A program made the translations under genes and the position numbers. A stretch of 64,000 nt of DNA from Limnochorda sp. LNt. GTDB taxonomy: Bacteria; Bacillota; Limnochordia; Limnochordales; Geochordaceae. The stretch lies in assembly GCF_035593265.1 (NCBI RefSeq), contig NZ_CP141614.1, positions 248,001 through 312,000 on the forward strand. The letters run 5' to 3'. The notes under the pieces are model-generated. The model searched no databases. It had not been told where the DNA came from and saw only the letters and a list, made by a program, of their open reading frames with translations. Every line of letters begins with the position of its first letter. The first letter of the stretch is position 1. This document shows, piece after piece, positions 39,083 to 45,220 of the stretch.

Positions 39083-40399
39083 GTGGCGTTCATCGGGGCC
39101 CTGCTGGTGATGGCGGGGCTCATCGCCTTCATCGGAGATCGGGTCGGCATGCGGGTGGGCCGGAGGCGGCTGACCCTGCTGGGGCTGCGGCCTCGCCACA
39201 CCTCGGTGGTCATCACGGTCCTCACCGGGGTCGTCATCGCCGGTCTCTCCCTCGGGATGCTGGTGGCCGCCTCCAACGAGGTGCGCCTCGCCCTCTTTCG
39301 CATCGACGAGATCCACGCGGTGCTGGCCGACAACCGCCGGCAGCTGGAGGCGCTCCAGCAGGAGCTGGATCGTCGCCAGCGGGCTCTGGCGGAGGCGACC
39401 GCCGCCCGGGACGAGGCCGAGGCCCAGCGAGACGCGGCGATGCAGGAGCGGGCCCGGGCGGAGTCCGAGCTAAAGCAGGCGCAGAGTCTGCTCGACCAGG
39501 TGCAGGGTGAGCTGGCCTCCGCCCGCCAGGAGCTGGCCCGGACCCAGCAACGGCTGGAGAAGACCCGGCAGGACCTCACCTTTCAGGTGGCGCGGGTGCA
39601 GCAGCTGCAGGAGCTGGGCGAGACCCTGGCCGCAAGGGTGCAGGACCTCGAGCAACAGGTGGCGTCGTTGCGTCGCACCGAGCAGGAGCTGAGCGACGCC
39701 ATCATCGCCCTGTGGGGGACGGCTCAACGGCTGCATTACGGCAGCCTCGTCTACCGGCACGGCGAGATCGTCCTCTCCGAGGTGATCACGTCGGACGGGA
39801 CGGCCGAGGGGGCGCGCGAGAGCCTGCTGGCATTCCTGCGGCGGGTCGAGTCGGTGGCGTCGGCCCGCATGGGGCAGGCCCAGGGAGGGGAGGGAGCGCA
39901 GGGGAGCGTCGTACGGCTTCGGCCCGACGAGTTCGACGAGAGCCTGGCCACGCTTGCCGGCGGCAAGGGCACGTGGGTCGTGCGGGCCCGCGTCGACGGC
40001 AATACCCTGGCCGGTGAGGCCGTGGTGGTGCAGATCGAGCTGATTCCCCGAGGCCTCGCCTACCAGGCCGGTCAGGTGGTGGCGGAGGTCGTCGTCGATC
40101 CGTCCCGGGAGCGCGTCGAGGATCAGGTGCTGGCCCTCTTGGGGCGGACCAACGAGCTGGCCATCGCGTACGGTGGCATGGTGACCGGGCCCGATGGCAC
40201 CGTGGGCAAGTTGGTGAGCGCGGAGGAGTTCGTGCGGGTGGTGGAGGAGCTCCGGCAGATGGGGCGCCCGGCCCGTGTCGTCGCCCGGGCGGAGCGCGAC
40301 ACGTACAACACGGAGGGCCCGCTCTCCATCCGCCTCGACGTCGAGGCGCTCTCCGACGCATCGCAGGCTGGCAAAAGAGGGAGTCCAGGCTCGGGGTAG
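39083..40399 (+). CDS. DUF3084-type membrane protein with long coiled coil
   Basis: Protein of 438 residues. Two N-terminal membrane segments (about 1-18 and 38-62) flank the motif GDRVGMRVGRRRLTLLGLRPRHTS, typical of DUF3084. A coiled coil of about 130 residues (rich in Gln, Glu, Arg, Leu) follows at about 78-210, then a globular C-terminal domain. Relatives are common in cyanobacteria and diderm Firmicutes; function unknown. GTG start without a strong ribosome site. It lies between lptB and an SLH protein, suggesting an envelope role. Confidence 0.72.
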   Translation: MAFIGALLVMAGLIAFIGDRVGMRVGRRRLTLLGLRPRHTSVVITVLTGVVIAGLSLGMLVAASNEVRLALFRIDEIHAVLADNRRQLEALQQELDRRQRALAEATAARDEAEAQRDAAMQERARAESELKQAQSLLDQVQGELASARQELARTQQRLEKTRQDLTFQVARVQQLQELGETLAARVQDLEQQVASLRRTEQELSDAIIALWGTAQRLHYGSLVYRHGEIVLSEVITSDGTAEGARESLLAFLRRVESVASARMGQAQGGEGAQGSVVRLRPDEFDESLATLAGGKGTWVVRARVDGNTLAGEAVVVQIELIPRGLAYQAGQVVAEVVVDPSRERVEDQVLALLGRTNELAIAYGGMVTGPDGTVGKLVSAEEFVRVVEELRQMGRPARVVARAERDTYNTEGPLSIRLDVEALSDASQAGKRGSPGSG

Positions 40400-40573
40400 C
40401 AGGACCTGGTGGCCAACCGGAAGAATGAGTCCATCACCGTAGGTCCCGGCGAGTACGTCAACACAGCCCCGCAGGTGACCGGCCCCGAGCCAGGGCACGG
40501 CGGCCGCGGTCCCGGGCCGTGTCCGGTCTTGGCGGTGGGTGTCGATGACGTTGTGGAGGGGGTTCGCTCTACG

Positions 40574-41635
40574 ATGTGGCGCAAGGGCCTGGCGGTCGTG
40601 CTCACGATGGTGGCGCTAGCGCTCGCGGTGCCCCCGGCGCTGGCCGAGGAGAGTCCGTTCGTCGACGTCCCGGAGGGGCACTGGGCCTATGAGGCCATCG
40701 CCAACCTGGCGGCTGCGGGATTGGTGCAGGGGTATCCCGACGGCACGTTCGGCGGCTCGCGGATGCTGACCCGCTACGAGGCCGCCATGATCTTCTCCCG
40801 CATGCTGACCCGTCTCGAAAACGTCATCCGCCAGGACGTGGCCGGTGAGGTGCAGGGCCTGTCGGCGCAGGTCGCAGGTGACGTGACCCAGCGCGTGATG
40901 GCCCGCGCCACCTCCGAGATCCAGCAGGCCATCATGGCCGCTCGGGAGGCGCTGGCCCGGGATCTGACCCAGATGGTGGAGGAGAAGCTGGCGCAGGCCC
41001 CGCCCACGACGGTGGAGCGGGTCGTGGTGGAGCGGCAACCGCAGGTGACGGAGCGCGTCGTCGTCGAGCAGGCGTTCGAGGTCAACGACGAGGTGCGGGC
41101 CGCCATCGCGGCCGTGGTGGCCGACGAGGTGCAGCAGCGCCTGAGCGGCGAGCGCCTCGAGCGGCTGGCTCGGGAGCTGGCGGGCACGCAGGCCTTCGCG
41201 GACGGAGTGGACGCCATCCTGCAGCGCGAGCTCGGGCCGGTGCTGGGCCTGCAGGGGCTCGACGTCGAGGTGGCCGCCCTGCGCGGTGACGTCGATGCCA
41301 TCCGCTCCGTGCTCAACCGGCGGGTGGATCAGCTCGCGGCCGACATCGAGGCCCTGCGCAGCGCCCAGGAGGGGCTGGGGCAGTCGCTGAGCGCCGTCAA
41401 CGACCTGGCGGTTCAGAGCGTCCAGCGTGTCGGCGCCCTCGAGTCGCAGGTGATCGGGATGAGCGGCCGCATCGACAGCCTGGAGCAGTCCGCCGCGCAG
41501 AAGGCGGCGCAGGGTGACGTCGATGCGCTGAGCGGGCGGGTCCAGCAGCTGGAGCAGACCAACCGGCGGCTCACGTGGGCCGTGGTGCTGCTGGGGCTCG
41601 CGGCCGTCGCCGGTATCTTCATGCCCATGCCCTGA
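40574..41635 (+). CDS. Omp-alpha-like SLH/coiled-coil outer-membrane tether
   Basis: Protein of 353 residues in four parts: signal peptide (1-24, ending PALA), one SLH domain (about 27-78; FVDVPEGHWAYEAIANLAAAG, YPDGTFGG and LTRYEAAMIFSRML), a long coiled coil (about 80-325), and a C-terminal hydrophobic segment (about 331-353). Thermotoga Omp-alpha has exactly this order: SLH binds the wall, the rod crosses the periplasm and the last segment sits in the outer membrane. The start ATG 40574 follows GGAGGGGG; an upstream in-frame extension (40409) lacks a signal peptide. Probably followed by the terminator at 41653. Confidence 0.8.
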   Translation: MWRKGLAVVLTMVALALAVPPALAEESPFVDVPEGHWAYEAIANLAAAGLVQGYPDGTFGGSRMLTRYEAAMIFSRMLTRLENVIRQDVAGEVQGLSAQVAGDVTQRVMARATSEIQQAIMAAREALARDLTQMVEEKLAQAPPTTVERVVVERQPQVTERVVVEQAFEVNDEVRAAIAAVVADEVQQRLSGERLERLARELAGTQAFADGVDAILQRELGPVLGLQGLDVEVAALRGDVDAIRSVLNRRVDQLAADIEALRSAQEGLGQSLSAVNDLAVQSVQRVGALESQVIGMSGRIDSLEQSAAQKAAQGDVDALSGRVQQLEQTNRRLTWAVVLLGLAAVAGIFMPMP

Positions 41636-41652: not shown

Positions 41653-41688
41653 CGGGCCCGGCGCGCGCCGCCGGGCCCGCTTCGTTTT
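41653..41688 (+). terminator. Rho-independent-type terminator
   Basis: Perfect 10-bp inverted repeat CGGGCCCGGC (41653-41662) and GCCGGGCCCG (41670-41679), 7-base loop, followed by CTTCGTTTT. It lies 18 bases after the stop of the SLH/coiled-coil gene. It is the best T-tract terminator in the window. Confidence 0.65.
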
Positions 41689-41757
41689 GGGGGCAGCTCC
41701 GGTAGCAGGCCGTTGGGCGCGGGCGGGCCGGCCGGCAAGGGTGGGGACGCCGTCGGC

Positions 41758-42273
41758 GTGGCGGGGCGCGTGCGTCGGGTGATGGCCATCGACCCCGGGC
41801 GTGCCAAGTGCGGGGTCGCGGTCGTGGAACCGGGAGGCGGCGTGCTGCACCGGGAGGTGGTGGCCACCGCCGACCTGGAGCGACGCGTCGTCGTGCTCCT
41901 CGCCCGGTACGCCCCCGACGTGCTCGTGGTGGGCGACCGGACGGGCTCCGGGCCTATCGCCCGTCGCCTCGGGGCCCTGTCCGAGGTGCGGGCCCTGGGA
42001 GGCGTCGTTGCCGTCGACGAGCGCGACAGCTCGCTCGAGGCCCGTCGTCGGTACTTCCAAGCGATGCCCCCGAGGGGGCTCTGGAGGCTGGTGCCCGCCG
42101 GCCTGCGGGTGCCCCCCGTCCCTGTCGACGACTGGGCAGCCGTCGTTCTGGCGGAGCGCTTCTTGTCGAGTCATGGCGGCGGGGGGGGCCGGATAGGATC
42201 TTTTGCCGCAGGGCCGCGCGCCCGTTGGAGCGAATCGCACGCCGTGGAGCCCTCCGCAAGATGCGAAGCGTAG
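41758..42273 (+). CDS. YqgF/RuvC-like RNase H-fold protein
   Basis: Protein of about 171 residues. The first strand carries the catalytic Asp in MAIDPGRAKCGVAVV, the middle has LVVGDRTGSGP and VAVDERDSSLEARRRY (compare DERLTT of YqgF), and the last helix has VDDWAAVVLAERFL with a possible metal ligand. YqgF family members process the 16S rRNA 5' end or act as resolvases; this one is divergent, so no symbol is given. The GTG start (41758) is supported by GGGTGGGG. A Gly-rich, poorly conserved tail overlaps the next gene by 13 bases. Confidence 0.65.
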   Translation: MAGRVRRVMAIDPGRAKCGVAVVEPGGGVLHREVVATADLERRVVVLLARYAPDVLVVGDRTGSGPIARRLGALSEVRALGGVVAVDERDSSLEARRRYFQAMPPRGLWRLVPAGLRVPPVPVDDWAAVVLAERFLSSHGGGGGRIGSFAAGPRARWSESHAVEPSARCEA

Positions 42274-44147
42274 GCGTCGCTTTTAGGAGAGCATCCTCGA
42301 GGCGGACGTGGTGCCAGGCGGCACTGGTCGGCCTGATGGCCCTGGCCCTGGGGGCCGCGGGGGCCGCGAGCGCTGCCGAGCCAGGCGACAGCGGCTATGC
42401 CGTGCGCCTATACGGTCCGCTGGCGCAGCTACCCGCTGGCCACTGGGCGTATCAGGCCCTCGAGGACCTGATGCGGGTGGGGCTGGTGGTCGAGTACACG
42501 CCCGGCCTCTTCGACGCGGACCGCGTCATCACGCGGTACGAGGCGGCGCTGCTGCTGGTCGACGCCTTTCGCCGGGCCGACGCCGTCACGGCCGAGGCGC
42601 AGGGCCCCACGCGCCTTCGGATGCTCTCGCCCGACAGGCTGGTGGGTGCGGCCGTCTCCGGTGCGGATGCCGGTGCCCGGCTGAGGGAGACGGTGCGCGC
42701 CCTGGGGGAAGAGTTTACCGAGGAGCTCAAGGTGTTGGGCTTCGCGATGGAAGGGGTCGCCCCGCCCTCGACGCCGGAGCTGGCCGCCACGGGCACGTTG
42801 CGGATGCGCTCCAGTGCCTCCTCGTCCATCCTGCCGTCCGCGGGGGCGCCTCGCCTTCCCGTCGCTCCCGAGGCACCGGAGCAGATGCCGAACGCGGAGG
42901 CGGACGTGCCTGAGACGACGGAGCAGGCCCCGGTGGCGGAGACGGGGCCGCCCCAGCCGCAGGCGTCGGTGGGGGTCGGCGGGACGCCTGACGTATCGGC
43001 CGGGCTGGCGCCTCCACGGGTCGGGCTGGACGGGCCGGTTGCCTCGATGGCCTCGGCGTACGAGCTGGGGATACGTCTGGCCCTCCCCTCTCGCTGGGAC
43101 GTCGACGGGCAGGTGGACCTGACGACGCTCACCCCCACCCAGCTGGGCTTGCTGGTCGCGGGGCCCGACCCCAACCGGTGGCTGTGGGCACGGGTGGGCA
43201 ACGTGGCCTCCCCGTCGGGGGCGAGCCTGGGCCTGGGGGCGACCGACGAGCCGCTGACCCTGCAGGGCATCGAGGCCCGGCTCCTGGGAGGAGACGCCCG
43301 GACGGGGATCGTGGTGGGCGAGTCGGTGCCTGCCATCCCCCTCGCGGGGGAGCAGGGGCGAGAGAAGAAGACCGTCGCGGTCCTGGACGGCTCGCTGGTG
43401 CTGTCGCATCAGGTGGTGGTGGGGGGCGCGGTCATCCGCGCCAGCGACGACCTGACCCGGCTGTGGGAGCTCGGGGAGGGAGCCACCGTCACGTCGCTGT
43501 CGGGGCGAGTGGCGCCCCTGCCGTGGTTGTCCATCACGGGGGAGTACGCCCAAAACCTCTGGGCCCTGCCCCTGGTGGCGTCGGCCATGCGCCTGGGCGC
43601 CACGCTGCGCCTGGGCGATGTGACGCTGGGTGCGCGGGTGGGGCGCGTCTCGCCCGAGTTCCAGCCGGCCCTGGGGACCGCGCGACCCGGCGACGAGGTG
43701 GGCGTGGATGCGACGGTGGATCTTGGCGACGTTCGCCTGCGGGCCGGCACCGGACGCCGCAACCTGGTGAGCGCGACCGGCGCGCCCCGCCCGGAGCTGA
43801 CGACCTCCTTCGGGGTGCGCATCGGCTGGCTGGCGGGCGCAACCGTGGCGGCCGACTACGAATTGATATCCGTGGAAGATCTGGAAGCCGGCCGCGACCG
43901 GGCCAGGACCCGGCTGGGCGTGGGCTGGGAGACGCCCGCTGCCCGGATCCAGATGGGCCTCGAGTGGGGACCGCGTGAGCCGTACGATGCCGAAGGGACA
44001 CAAGACGGCCAGCTGGAGGCGAGCGCCTCGGTCTCCTACCGGCTCAACCCGTACTCGGCGGTCATGCTGGGGTACCGGCTCATCGACTTCGGCCGGGATG
44101 CCGGGCGGGAGGCCGGAGCGACCGCCCAGATCACCGTGCGGTTTTGA
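42261..44147 (+). CDS. OmpM-like SLH-domain outer-membrane porin
   Basis: Protein of 628 residues: signal peptide (to about 39), one divergent SLH domain (about 55-105; LPAGHWAYQALEDLMRVGLV and ITRYEAALLLVDAF), a Pro/Glu/Ala-rich linker (about 110-255), and a C-terminal region of amphipathic strands ending in Phe (AQITVRF), as in outer-membrane barrels. SLH plus barrel is the plan of OmpM of Negativicutes and Halanaerobiales, the main porin and wall anchor in diderm Firmicutes. ATG 42261. With the gene at 40574 it gives two different SLH tethers side by side. Confidence 0.78.
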   Translation: MRSVGVAFRRASSRRTWCQAALVGLMALALGAAGAASAAEPGDSGYAVRLYGPLAQLPAGHWAYQALEDLMRVGLVVEYTPGLFDADRVITRYEAALLLVDAFRRADAVTAEAQGPTRLRMLSPDRLVGAAVSGADAGARLRETVRALGEEFTEELKVLGFAMEGVAPPSTPELAATGTLRMRSSASSSILPSAGAPRLPVAPEAPEQMPNAEADVPETTEQAPVAETGPPQPQASVGVGGTPDVSAGLAPPRVGLDGPVASMASAYELGIRLALPSRWDVDGQVDLTTLTPTQLGLLVAGPDPNRWLWARVGNVASPSGASLGLGATDEPLTLQGIEARLLGGDARTGIVVGESVPAIPLAGEQGREKKTVAVLDGSLVLSHQVVVGGAVIRASDDLTRLWELGEGATVTSLSGRVAPLPWLSITGEYAQNLWALPLVASAMRLGATLRLGDVTLGARVGRVSPEFQPALGTARPGDEVGVDATVDLGDVRLRAGTGRRNLVSATGAPRPELTTSFGVRIGWLAGATVAADYELISVEDLEAGRDRARTRLGVGWETPAARIQMGLEWGPREPYDAEGTQDGQLEASASVSYRLNPYSAVMLGYRLIDFGRDAGREAGATAQITVRF

Positions 44148-44179
44148 GGGTGCCGCTCGCTGCGGGAGGAGGCAGGCCG

Positions 44180-45220
44180 ATGCGGGGAGGCATGGGTCGA
44201 GCGTGGGCCGTCACGGCCACCGTCGCGCTGACGGGGATGGTGGTCGCGAGGGTCGCGCTGGGCGCCGTGGCGCAGGGGATCGAGGGCGTCCCCATCAGCC
44301 AGAAGGTGGCCAGGGTCTATCAGGCGGTCTCGGGCTCGCCCCCGCCCGAGGGCAGCGGGTTGCGTGACCAGATCGACGCCGCGACGCAGCTGCTCTACGG
44401 CGCCAACTGGCAGAGCAAGGTGAGCCCCAGCCTGGTCGATCGGGTCAACCAGCTGGTGCAGGTGGTGAGCCTGGGCGACCCCAACGTCTCGCTGGTCAGC
44501 CGCATGCTGGCCATCGAATGGAGCATCAACCAGAGCCTCTACGAGTGGGAAGTGGCCAACCAGCCCGACGGGTTGCGGCTACCGCCGGCCACCTCCATCA
44601 CGGAGCCGCCGCTGCGCCCGCTGCGGGAGCGGGTCGCCTGGGTCGAGCGCCTGCTGTACGGGCGCGAGCAGTCCGGTGGCCTCGTGGAGCGGATCGACCG
44701 GCTGGCCCGTGAGGTGTGGGGCAGCGCAGCGGCCTCGCGGCTGGCGACCAAAGTGGTGCGGGTCTCCGCCAACGCCGGGCAGGTCCGCATACGGCTACTG
44801 GGCACCATCAGCAACGAGCGCGACAAGGCGAGCGTGCCGGGGCAGAAGGTGCCGTTCATCGTCGTCGACTCGCTGGTGCTCGACGGCGCGCTGGTGTTGC
44901 CGCGGGGTGCCATCGGCATCGCGACCGTCGAAGATGTCCAGACGCCCAGCCTGGGCCGGCCCGGCCGCCTGAGCGCCTCGGGCATCGTCTGGGCCGTCGA
45001 CGGCATGCCGCTGGGGGCGACCCTCGGACTGAGCGAGCAAGCCGAGGGGAGCGGGGTCAACCCGCTGGGAGCGGCCCTGAGCGGTCCCATCGCGGCGCCG
45101 ACGGGGTTGCTGGTGCAGGGCAACGCCCGCACCCTGGAGCCCGGCACCGTGCTGGTGGCGTCCATCGGCCCCGCGCCGGGCTGGCGCGAGGCGCCGGTCA
45201 TCAACGCCATGGTCCAGTGA
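44180..45220 (+). CDS. Unknown exported protein next to OmpM-like gene
   Basis: Not recognised. It has 346 residues with a signal peptide or anchor (about residues 6-32). The N-terminal half is helical, with two similar segments (LRDQIDAATQLLYGANWQSKVSPSLVDRVNQL and LRERVAWVERLLYGREQSGGLVERIDRL, here given as LLYGANW and LLYGREQ) that form an internal repeat. The C-terminal half is beta-rich, with SLVLDGALVLPRGAIGIATVEDVQ. The ATG start follows GGGAGGAGG. It lies 32 bases after the OmpM-like gene and is probably cotranscribed; a hairpin follows its stop. Confidence 0.6.
   Translation: MRGGMGRAWAVTATVALTGMVVARVALGAVAQGIEGVPISQKVARVYQAVSGSPPPEGSGLRDQIDAATQLLYGANWQSKVSPSLVDRVNQLVQVVSLGDPNVSLVSRMLAIEWSINQSLYEWEVANQPDGLRLPPATSITEPPLRPLRERVAWVERLLYGREQSGGLVERIDRLAREVWGSAAASRLATKVVRVSANAGQVRIRLLGTISNERDKASVPGQKVPFIVVDSLVLDGALVLPRGAIGIATVEDVQTPSLGRPGRLSASGIVWAVDGMPLGATLGLSEQAEGSGVNPLGAALSGPIAAPTGLLVQGNARTLEPGTVLVASIGPAPGWREAPVINAMVQ

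Follow-up and report, generated by a model that had tools for sequence, protein, structure and literature searches.

A barrel-less OmpM descendant as a probable helix-anchored tether between cell wall and outer membrane in one family of Limnochordia

Introduction

What is a protein with the layout of a Thermotoga Omp-alpha spacer doing in a genome of the Bacillota? The gene that raises this question lies within a 64,000-nucleotide stretch of the genome of Limnochorda sp. LNt (contig NZ_CP141614.1, positions 248,001 to 312,000), referred to here as the window, and its product, P0001, joins a signal peptide and an SLH domain to a long stalk and a C-terminal hydrophobic helix. In the OmpM protein of Veillonella parvula, tethering and porin function are combined in one chain, a link proposed to matter for the loss of the outer membrane in Firmicutes, and loss of OmpM in Veillonella causes the outer membrane to detach (PMC10628300). 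The same OmpM/SlpA layout, in which an SLH domain and a stalk are followed by a barrel, has been reported for Limnochordia (PMC9388160). Here, we ask from which of these lineages P0001 descends, in which membrane its helix would sit and what it would do there.

Results and discussion

The gene and its parts

P0001 is encoded by a real open reading frame, the features of which are collected in Table 1. Residues 1-24 resemble a signal peptide and align with those of OmpM orthologues. The SLH domain scores 48.4 bits against PF00395 (E 9e-13) and is the single domain that Pfam recognised in the protein, while NCBIfam returned sub-threshold matches alone, the best of them a porin model covering the SLH region. 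The protein ends in the 21-residue helix LTWAVVLLGLAAVAGIFMPMP, with MPMP as its last residues, and of the window's 43 called genes it is the sole one with a hydrophobic C-terminus of this kind. A sequence-only reading had named these three parts, signal peptide, SLH domain and hydrophobic end, and all three are borne out.

Table 1. Features of P0001 and its conserved neighbours, in window coordinates
Feature	Position	Strand	Basis or remark
DUF3084 protein, conserved upstream neighbour	39083..40399	+	PF11283 93.7 bits; synteny
Ribosome-binding-site-like GGAGGGGG	40555..40562	+	11 nt 5' of ATG start codon; direct sequence reading
SLH-stalk-helix protein gene P0001	40574..41635	+	353 aa; stop codon included in coordinates
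Signal peptide, residues 1-24 (end ALA/EES)	40574..40645	+	hydrophobic N-terminus, AxA-type end
SLH domain, residues 28-71, OmpM-type HWAY and TRYE motifs	40655..40786	+	PF00395
Stalk segment 1, residues 79-141	40808..40996	+	helical; aligned with OmpM stalk
Non-helical break, residues 142-171, contains PPTTVERVVVERQPQVTERVVVEQAFEV	40997..41086	+	common to OmpM orthologues
Stalk segment 2, residues 172-223, short helices	41087..41242	+	low-confidence model
Stalk segment 3, residues 232-331, heptad coiled coil	41267..41566	+	
C-terminal hydrophobic helix, residues 333-353	41570..41632	+	replaces OmpM beta-barrel
Intrinsic-terminator-like hairpin	41653..41679	+	11 G-C pairs then T-rich tail, directly 3' of P0001 stop
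RuvX/YqgF-like protein, conserved downstream neighbour	41740..42273 (start approximate)	+	PF03652 24.4 bits, under Pfam cut-off; synteny
Outer-membrane barrel with own divergent SLH	42270..44147 (start approximate)	+	weak Porin_4 match; C-terminal Phe

A barrel-less product in the OmpM slot

Relatives of P0001 were sought in 73 Limnochordia genomes, after which the loci were retrieved and their genes called. Nearly all genomes of the class have such relatives, and the locus usually runs from LptB, often through a protein of ~362 aa, to DUF3084, the SLH gene, a RuvX/YqgF-like gene and a barrel with its own SLH domain, followed by a conserved protein of 310-360 aa and, in some loci, by SLBB export and chain-length genes. 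P0001 occupies the OmpM slot of this order, with DUF3084 before it and the RuvX-like gene and the SLH barrel behind it, in surroundings where Pfam recognises the LPS and outer-membrane genes LpxB, MsbA and LptB; Omp85 is present in the genome.

Thirteen other families, represented by 25 complete loci, all have in this slot a gene for a protein of 542-1863 aa with SLH domain, stalk and barrel that ends in Phe. The form in which a helix stands in place of the barrel was found only in the window's own family, where it is carried by 4 of 4 genomes from two genera; the three genomes besides the window's encode an equally short protein that ends in a helix and is 71-75% identical to P0001. Judged from these sequences, the putative barrel-less OmpM with a helical anchor is confined to one family of Limnochordia.

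The neighbours of the slot are conserved as well. DUF3084 is found in 23 of 24 Omp85-positive Bacillota genomes, the exception being a genome 72% complete, and all 56 Omp85-negative ones lack it; its tie to the outer-membrane cluster has been noted before (PMC5007114). Its steady place just upstream of OmpM suggests that it takes part in tethering or in OmpM assembly. Almost every Limnochordia locus has the RuvX/YqgF-like gene placed between those for the SLH protein and the barrel, and a COG0816 protein with no known function has been described in the outer-membrane cluster (PMC5007114). The barrel at 42270-44147 shares 32% identity with residues 27-148 of P0001 (E 2e-10), although its SLH domain falls below the Pfam threshold; as it adjoins OmpM throughout the class and has its own SLH, it may be a second tether or a porin. 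Directly 3' of it, at 44144-45220, is the ~310-360 aa protein found there in most of the class, which has no match in Pfam or NCBIfam. In another family (f2; L128 14083-16062 and L130 5535-7730), the slot protein has a coil and a barrel, its SLH domain has degenerated and the stalk motif RVIERQVVVEAGP is kept.

Descent from OmpM

A profile made from Limnochordia OmpM orthologues, with the window's family left out, matches P0001 with 209 bits over residues 1-205 and with 18.7 bits over residues 233-326. Limnochordia also carry a second set of proteins, here family II, of 346-631 aa, with an SLH domain of a different type (VDRYTLA), a coil and a C-terminal helix, an arrangement like that of Omp-alpha. 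The SLH domain of P0001 scores 78-87 bits against OmpM orthologues, compared with 35-40 bits against family II. In an SLH tree, which is short (78 columns) and has many forks without resolution, the window's family falls among OmpM, beside the SLH domains of the neighbouring barrels, and family II forms one clade (100/100) that does not include P0001. Among solved structures, those nearest in sequence are SlpA of Deinococcus radiodurans (E 3e-17) and OmpM of V. parvula (E 5e-13), and the SLH domain of P0001 aligns with the chains of both.

P0001 shares with OmpM/SlpA-like proteins a single OmpM-type SLH domain after the signal peptide, a homologous stalk and a position in the cluster, but lacks their C-terminal barrel with an aromatic end. 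It also has the Omp-alpha order of SLH domain, long coiled coil and C-terminal transmembrane helix, with an interrupted coil. The sequence-only reading had matched the protein to Omp-alpha; this is supported for the layout and not for the homology, since bit scores, SLH tree and nearest structures (SlpA and OmpM) all mark the SLH domain and stalk as OmpM-type. P0001 probably reached the Omp-alpha layout by a separate route, and the likeness to Omp-alpha, which we know by description, is one of form without shown descent. Overall, we consider P0001 to be a barrel-less descendant of OmpM that tethers the wall to the outer membrane through a helical anchor, a reading to which we give a probability of roughly 0.7.

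A stalk broken twice

The structure of P0001 was predicted as a monomer from its single sequence with AlphaFold2, which gave a weak model (mean pLDDT 52). With this low confidence, residues 67-141, 172-189, 192-201, 206-223, 234-313 and 316-349 are helical, residues 142-171 are beta or loop and residues 224-233 are a loop; a fold search with the same low-confidence model found no match below E 0.18. Strong heptad periodicity is limited to about residues 215-325, within the segment that opens with the OmpM-like motif VAALRGDVDAI, while in residues 74-142 heptads are weak and an 11-residue repeat fits better. The heptad score of the whole stalk (0.357) exceeds that of 200 of 200 shuffles (0.256 +/- 0.024), and the coiled coil is therefore beyond chance.

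The first break is a beta-like motif of ~30 residues, PPTTVERVVVERQPQVTERVVVEQAFEV, which recurs in Limnochordia OmpM orthologues, for example as APEIVERVVVEQPIEKVMPFELTDE. As modelled, the coil is broken twice, by this conserved motif at 142-171 and by the second loop at 224-233. The coil of about 245 residues proposed from the sequence is in this way upheld as a coiled coil but not as a single unbroken one, and the rod of 36 nm derived from it fails because it assumes that the coil is continuous: the helical parts, ~205-220 residues, sum to ~30-32 nm if all are collinear, which is their upper limit.

From TRYE to the anchor, the stalk measures 267 residues in P0001 and 227 in the sister genus, a difference accounted for by a gap in the last coil segment, the length of which varies between genera. 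According to a rough caller, OmpM orthologue stalks measured from TRYE to the barrel have a median of 311 residues (quartiles 272-404), which puts both genera of the window's family at or below the lower quartile. By the same rough caller, the orthologues at L081 and L093 (1834 and 1863 aa) have stalks of more than 1000 residues before the barrel, which, if extended, would far exceed the tethers described in the literature cited here.

The C-terminal anchor and its membrane

The C-terminal helix is conserved throughout the window's family (four of four genomes). In these proteins and in family II, the helices are short, stand at the very C-terminus and have lysines or arginines before them and at most one after. 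Counted before versus after the helix, these residues number 13 versus 2 in the four proteins of the window's family (f1) and 107 versus 15 in 38 members of family II. Under the positive-inside rule, a cytoplasmic-membrane helix with its N-terminus outside is expected to have the opposite charge placement, and the observed one argues against a stop-anchor in the inner membrane.

This bears on the strongest rival explanation, in which P0001 links the wall to the inner membrane: its helix would lie in the cytoplasmic membrane, its SLH domain would grip the wall from within, and it would not set the spacing of the outer membrane. A signal peptide with a C-terminal stop-anchor is an ordinary inner-membrane topology, and the best 19-residue hydrophobicity sum of the P0001 helix (+0.8) lies within the range of inner-membrane helix controls from the window (-1.5 to +2.6); owing to this overlap, hydrophobicity was dropped as a discriminator between membranes. 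The sequence-only reading had held that a helix of cytoplasmic type would overturn the spacer model, and on this point hydrophobicity leaves both membranes in play, while the positive charges, which an inner-membrane placement would put on the periplasmic side, speak against it. So do the orthologues, whose stalk carries an outer-membrane barrel at the corresponding end; Thermotoga Omp-alpha homologues with hydrophobic C-termini, which have been recovered in the toga fraction (PMC3387000); and the distribution of the SLH-coil-helix layout, which is absent from 56 of 56 Omp85-negative genomes. We regard an inner-membrane location as unlikely.

The distribution was obtained from a profile search for family II in 101 Bacillota genomes, in which matches of 130 bits or more were counted as strong; 20 genomes have one. 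Omp85 was tested in 80 of the 101 genomes and found in 24, and strong matches occur in 20 of these 24 and in none of the 56 without it (Fisher P value = 3e-15, uncorrected for relatedness). The SLH-coil-helix layout is a diderm trait in Bacillota, as measured on family II with P0001 itself set aside. No published name for family II was found in the literature searched, where Omp-alpha is described for Thermotogae alone. The genomes compared here contradict the view that this layout belongs chiefly to Thermotogae, as family II is widespread in diderm Bacillota and has one member in this very genome, a 460-aa protein ending in LRTQNRWLMAASLAGVVLALAGLLMQ that lies outside the window and was missed by the Pfam SLH model (G000:C1:1574434-1575018; L137 2820-4202; matched by profile A1). 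We had considered that the window's family might lack family II, the genome having a single PF00395 match, an idea ruled out by this profile match.

The anchor of P0001 resembles those of family II. When anchors of the two families were compared, over ~30 residues of low-complexity sequence, the best scores were 53-78, against a shuffle mean of 26-29, and none of 200 composition-keeping shuffles scored as high; the closest pair is LRTTNQRLTVALVIVGLLAVAGIVVK and LRQTNSMLTVALVLVGLLGLAGK. This likeness fits the exchange of an OmpM barrel for an anchor of family II type and suggests that P0001 is a chimera of an OmpM part and a family II-like anchor, the helix having probably been either taken from a family II anchor or converged on it. 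That OmpM in one Limnochordia family exchanged its porin barrel for a family II anchor, independently repeating the division of labour between Omp-alpha and Omp-beta in Thermotogae, is a tentative proposal that we hold at somewhat below even odds. A search of the genome for the displaced barrel with a single orthologue barrel as query gave no match; such barrels diverge, and the search had no positive control.

Other explanations

P0001 might also be a truncated remnant of OmpM, its barrel lost and its present role gone. Besides the missing barrel, this is favoured by the sister genus, where an additional SLH gene in tandem (L063 9004-10365) encodes 453 aa with a short stalk and a small, odd barrel without C-terminal Phe; the SLH domain of this product groups in the SLH tree with that of its helix-bearing neighbour. 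The locus there has evidently been duplicated and rearranged, and the tandem gene is either an intermediate or a decaying form. P0001 itself, however, has an open frame, its identity of 71-75% spans two genera, the new helix is conserved, a proper ribosome site precedes the gene and a strong terminator lies directly behind its stop, and decay is improbable.

Slightly less probable still is descent from Omp-alpha itself, with P0001 a true orthologue of the Thermotoga protein that came to occupy the OmpM slot. In favour are a layout matching that published for Omp-alpha (PMC9388160, PMC3387000), a neighbouring barrel gene, comparable to ompB beside ompA1, and an anchor like those of family II; nevertheless, SLH domain and stalk are of OmpM type and far from family II of the same organisms. 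Least probable of all is that P0001 is the building block of the surface lattice that TEM shows on cultured relatives: strain LN has an S-layer and an SLH-domain protein that its describing paper links (PMC11456536), and the single PF00395 match in the genome may be that protein, yet no lattice-forming domain was found by Pfam, NCBIfam or the model, only stalk and helix follow the SLH domain, and this domain is single and OmpM-type, whereas monoderm wall-anchored SLH proteins carry three in tandem (PMC10628300).

A probable tether freed from porin function

P0001 is most likely a trimeric tether between wall and outer membrane that has been freed from porin function, its place in the outer membrane being inferred. 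Both the layout and the probable role as spacer or tether that had been read from the sequence are supported. OmpM and SlpA are trimers (PMC10628300, PMC9388160), and by analogy three P0001 chains would pair through their stalks and bring three SLH domains together in one predicted wall-binding head. In the outer membrane, the C-terminal helices would take the place of the orthologues' barrels, so that the protein would tie wall and outer membrane together and limit their spacing to a contour of up to ~30 nm, or less if a break folds or bends. Separate barrels, the neighbour at 42270-44147 among them, would serve as pores. As a candidate for an alternative tether, the genome has one match to PF00691 (OmpA/Pal), a model that also matches in B. 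subtilis, and the match may be MotB.

Geochorda and Carboxydochorda, which form round bodies and have a diderm envelope by TEM (PMC11456536), are probably cultured members of the window's family. We speculate that a weaker or longer tether could favour these round bodies.

A living lineage in which tethering is split from porin function would make the proposal on outer-membrane loss testable. If the exchange of barrel for anchor is true, tethering has been uncoupled from nutrient uptake, the anchor is an interchangeable module and single hydrophobic outer-membrane helices are a regular feature of diderm Bacillota. Anchors of this type pose the question of how a hydrophobic segment could cross the inner membrane, by way of the Sec channel, to reach the outer one. 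Family II, being restricted to diderms, offers many further proteins for such tests, some of them probably in culturable groups.

Comparison with known systems

The nearest known system is OmpM (SlpA-like) of diderm Firmicutes, such as V. parvula OmpM1 (PDB 8bym, 8bys, 8bz2), with which P0001 shares the single HWAY/TRYE SLH domain, the coiled-coil stalk and the setting in an LPS/outer-membrane cluster; its homology with Limnochordia OmpM extends over SLH domain and stalk. P0001 differs in having one hydrophobic end helix and no beta-barrel, and is no porin by itself. The best solved relative, D. radiodurans SlpA (PDB 7zgx), likewise has a single SLH domain and a long stalk, but also a large outer-membrane barrel that has no counterpart in P0001. 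Family II has the same layout and a similar anchor, while its SLH clade, stalk and genome location are different. Omp-alpha of Thermotoga maritima (OmpA1, TM0477), compared by description, shares the order of SLH domain, coiled coil and C-terminal transmembrane helix, the proposed spacer role and a nearby barrel gene (PMC9388160, PMC3387000); P0001 is set apart from it by an OmpM-derived SLH domain and stalk, and by a broken stalk of 267 residues where Omp-alpha has a coil of 316.
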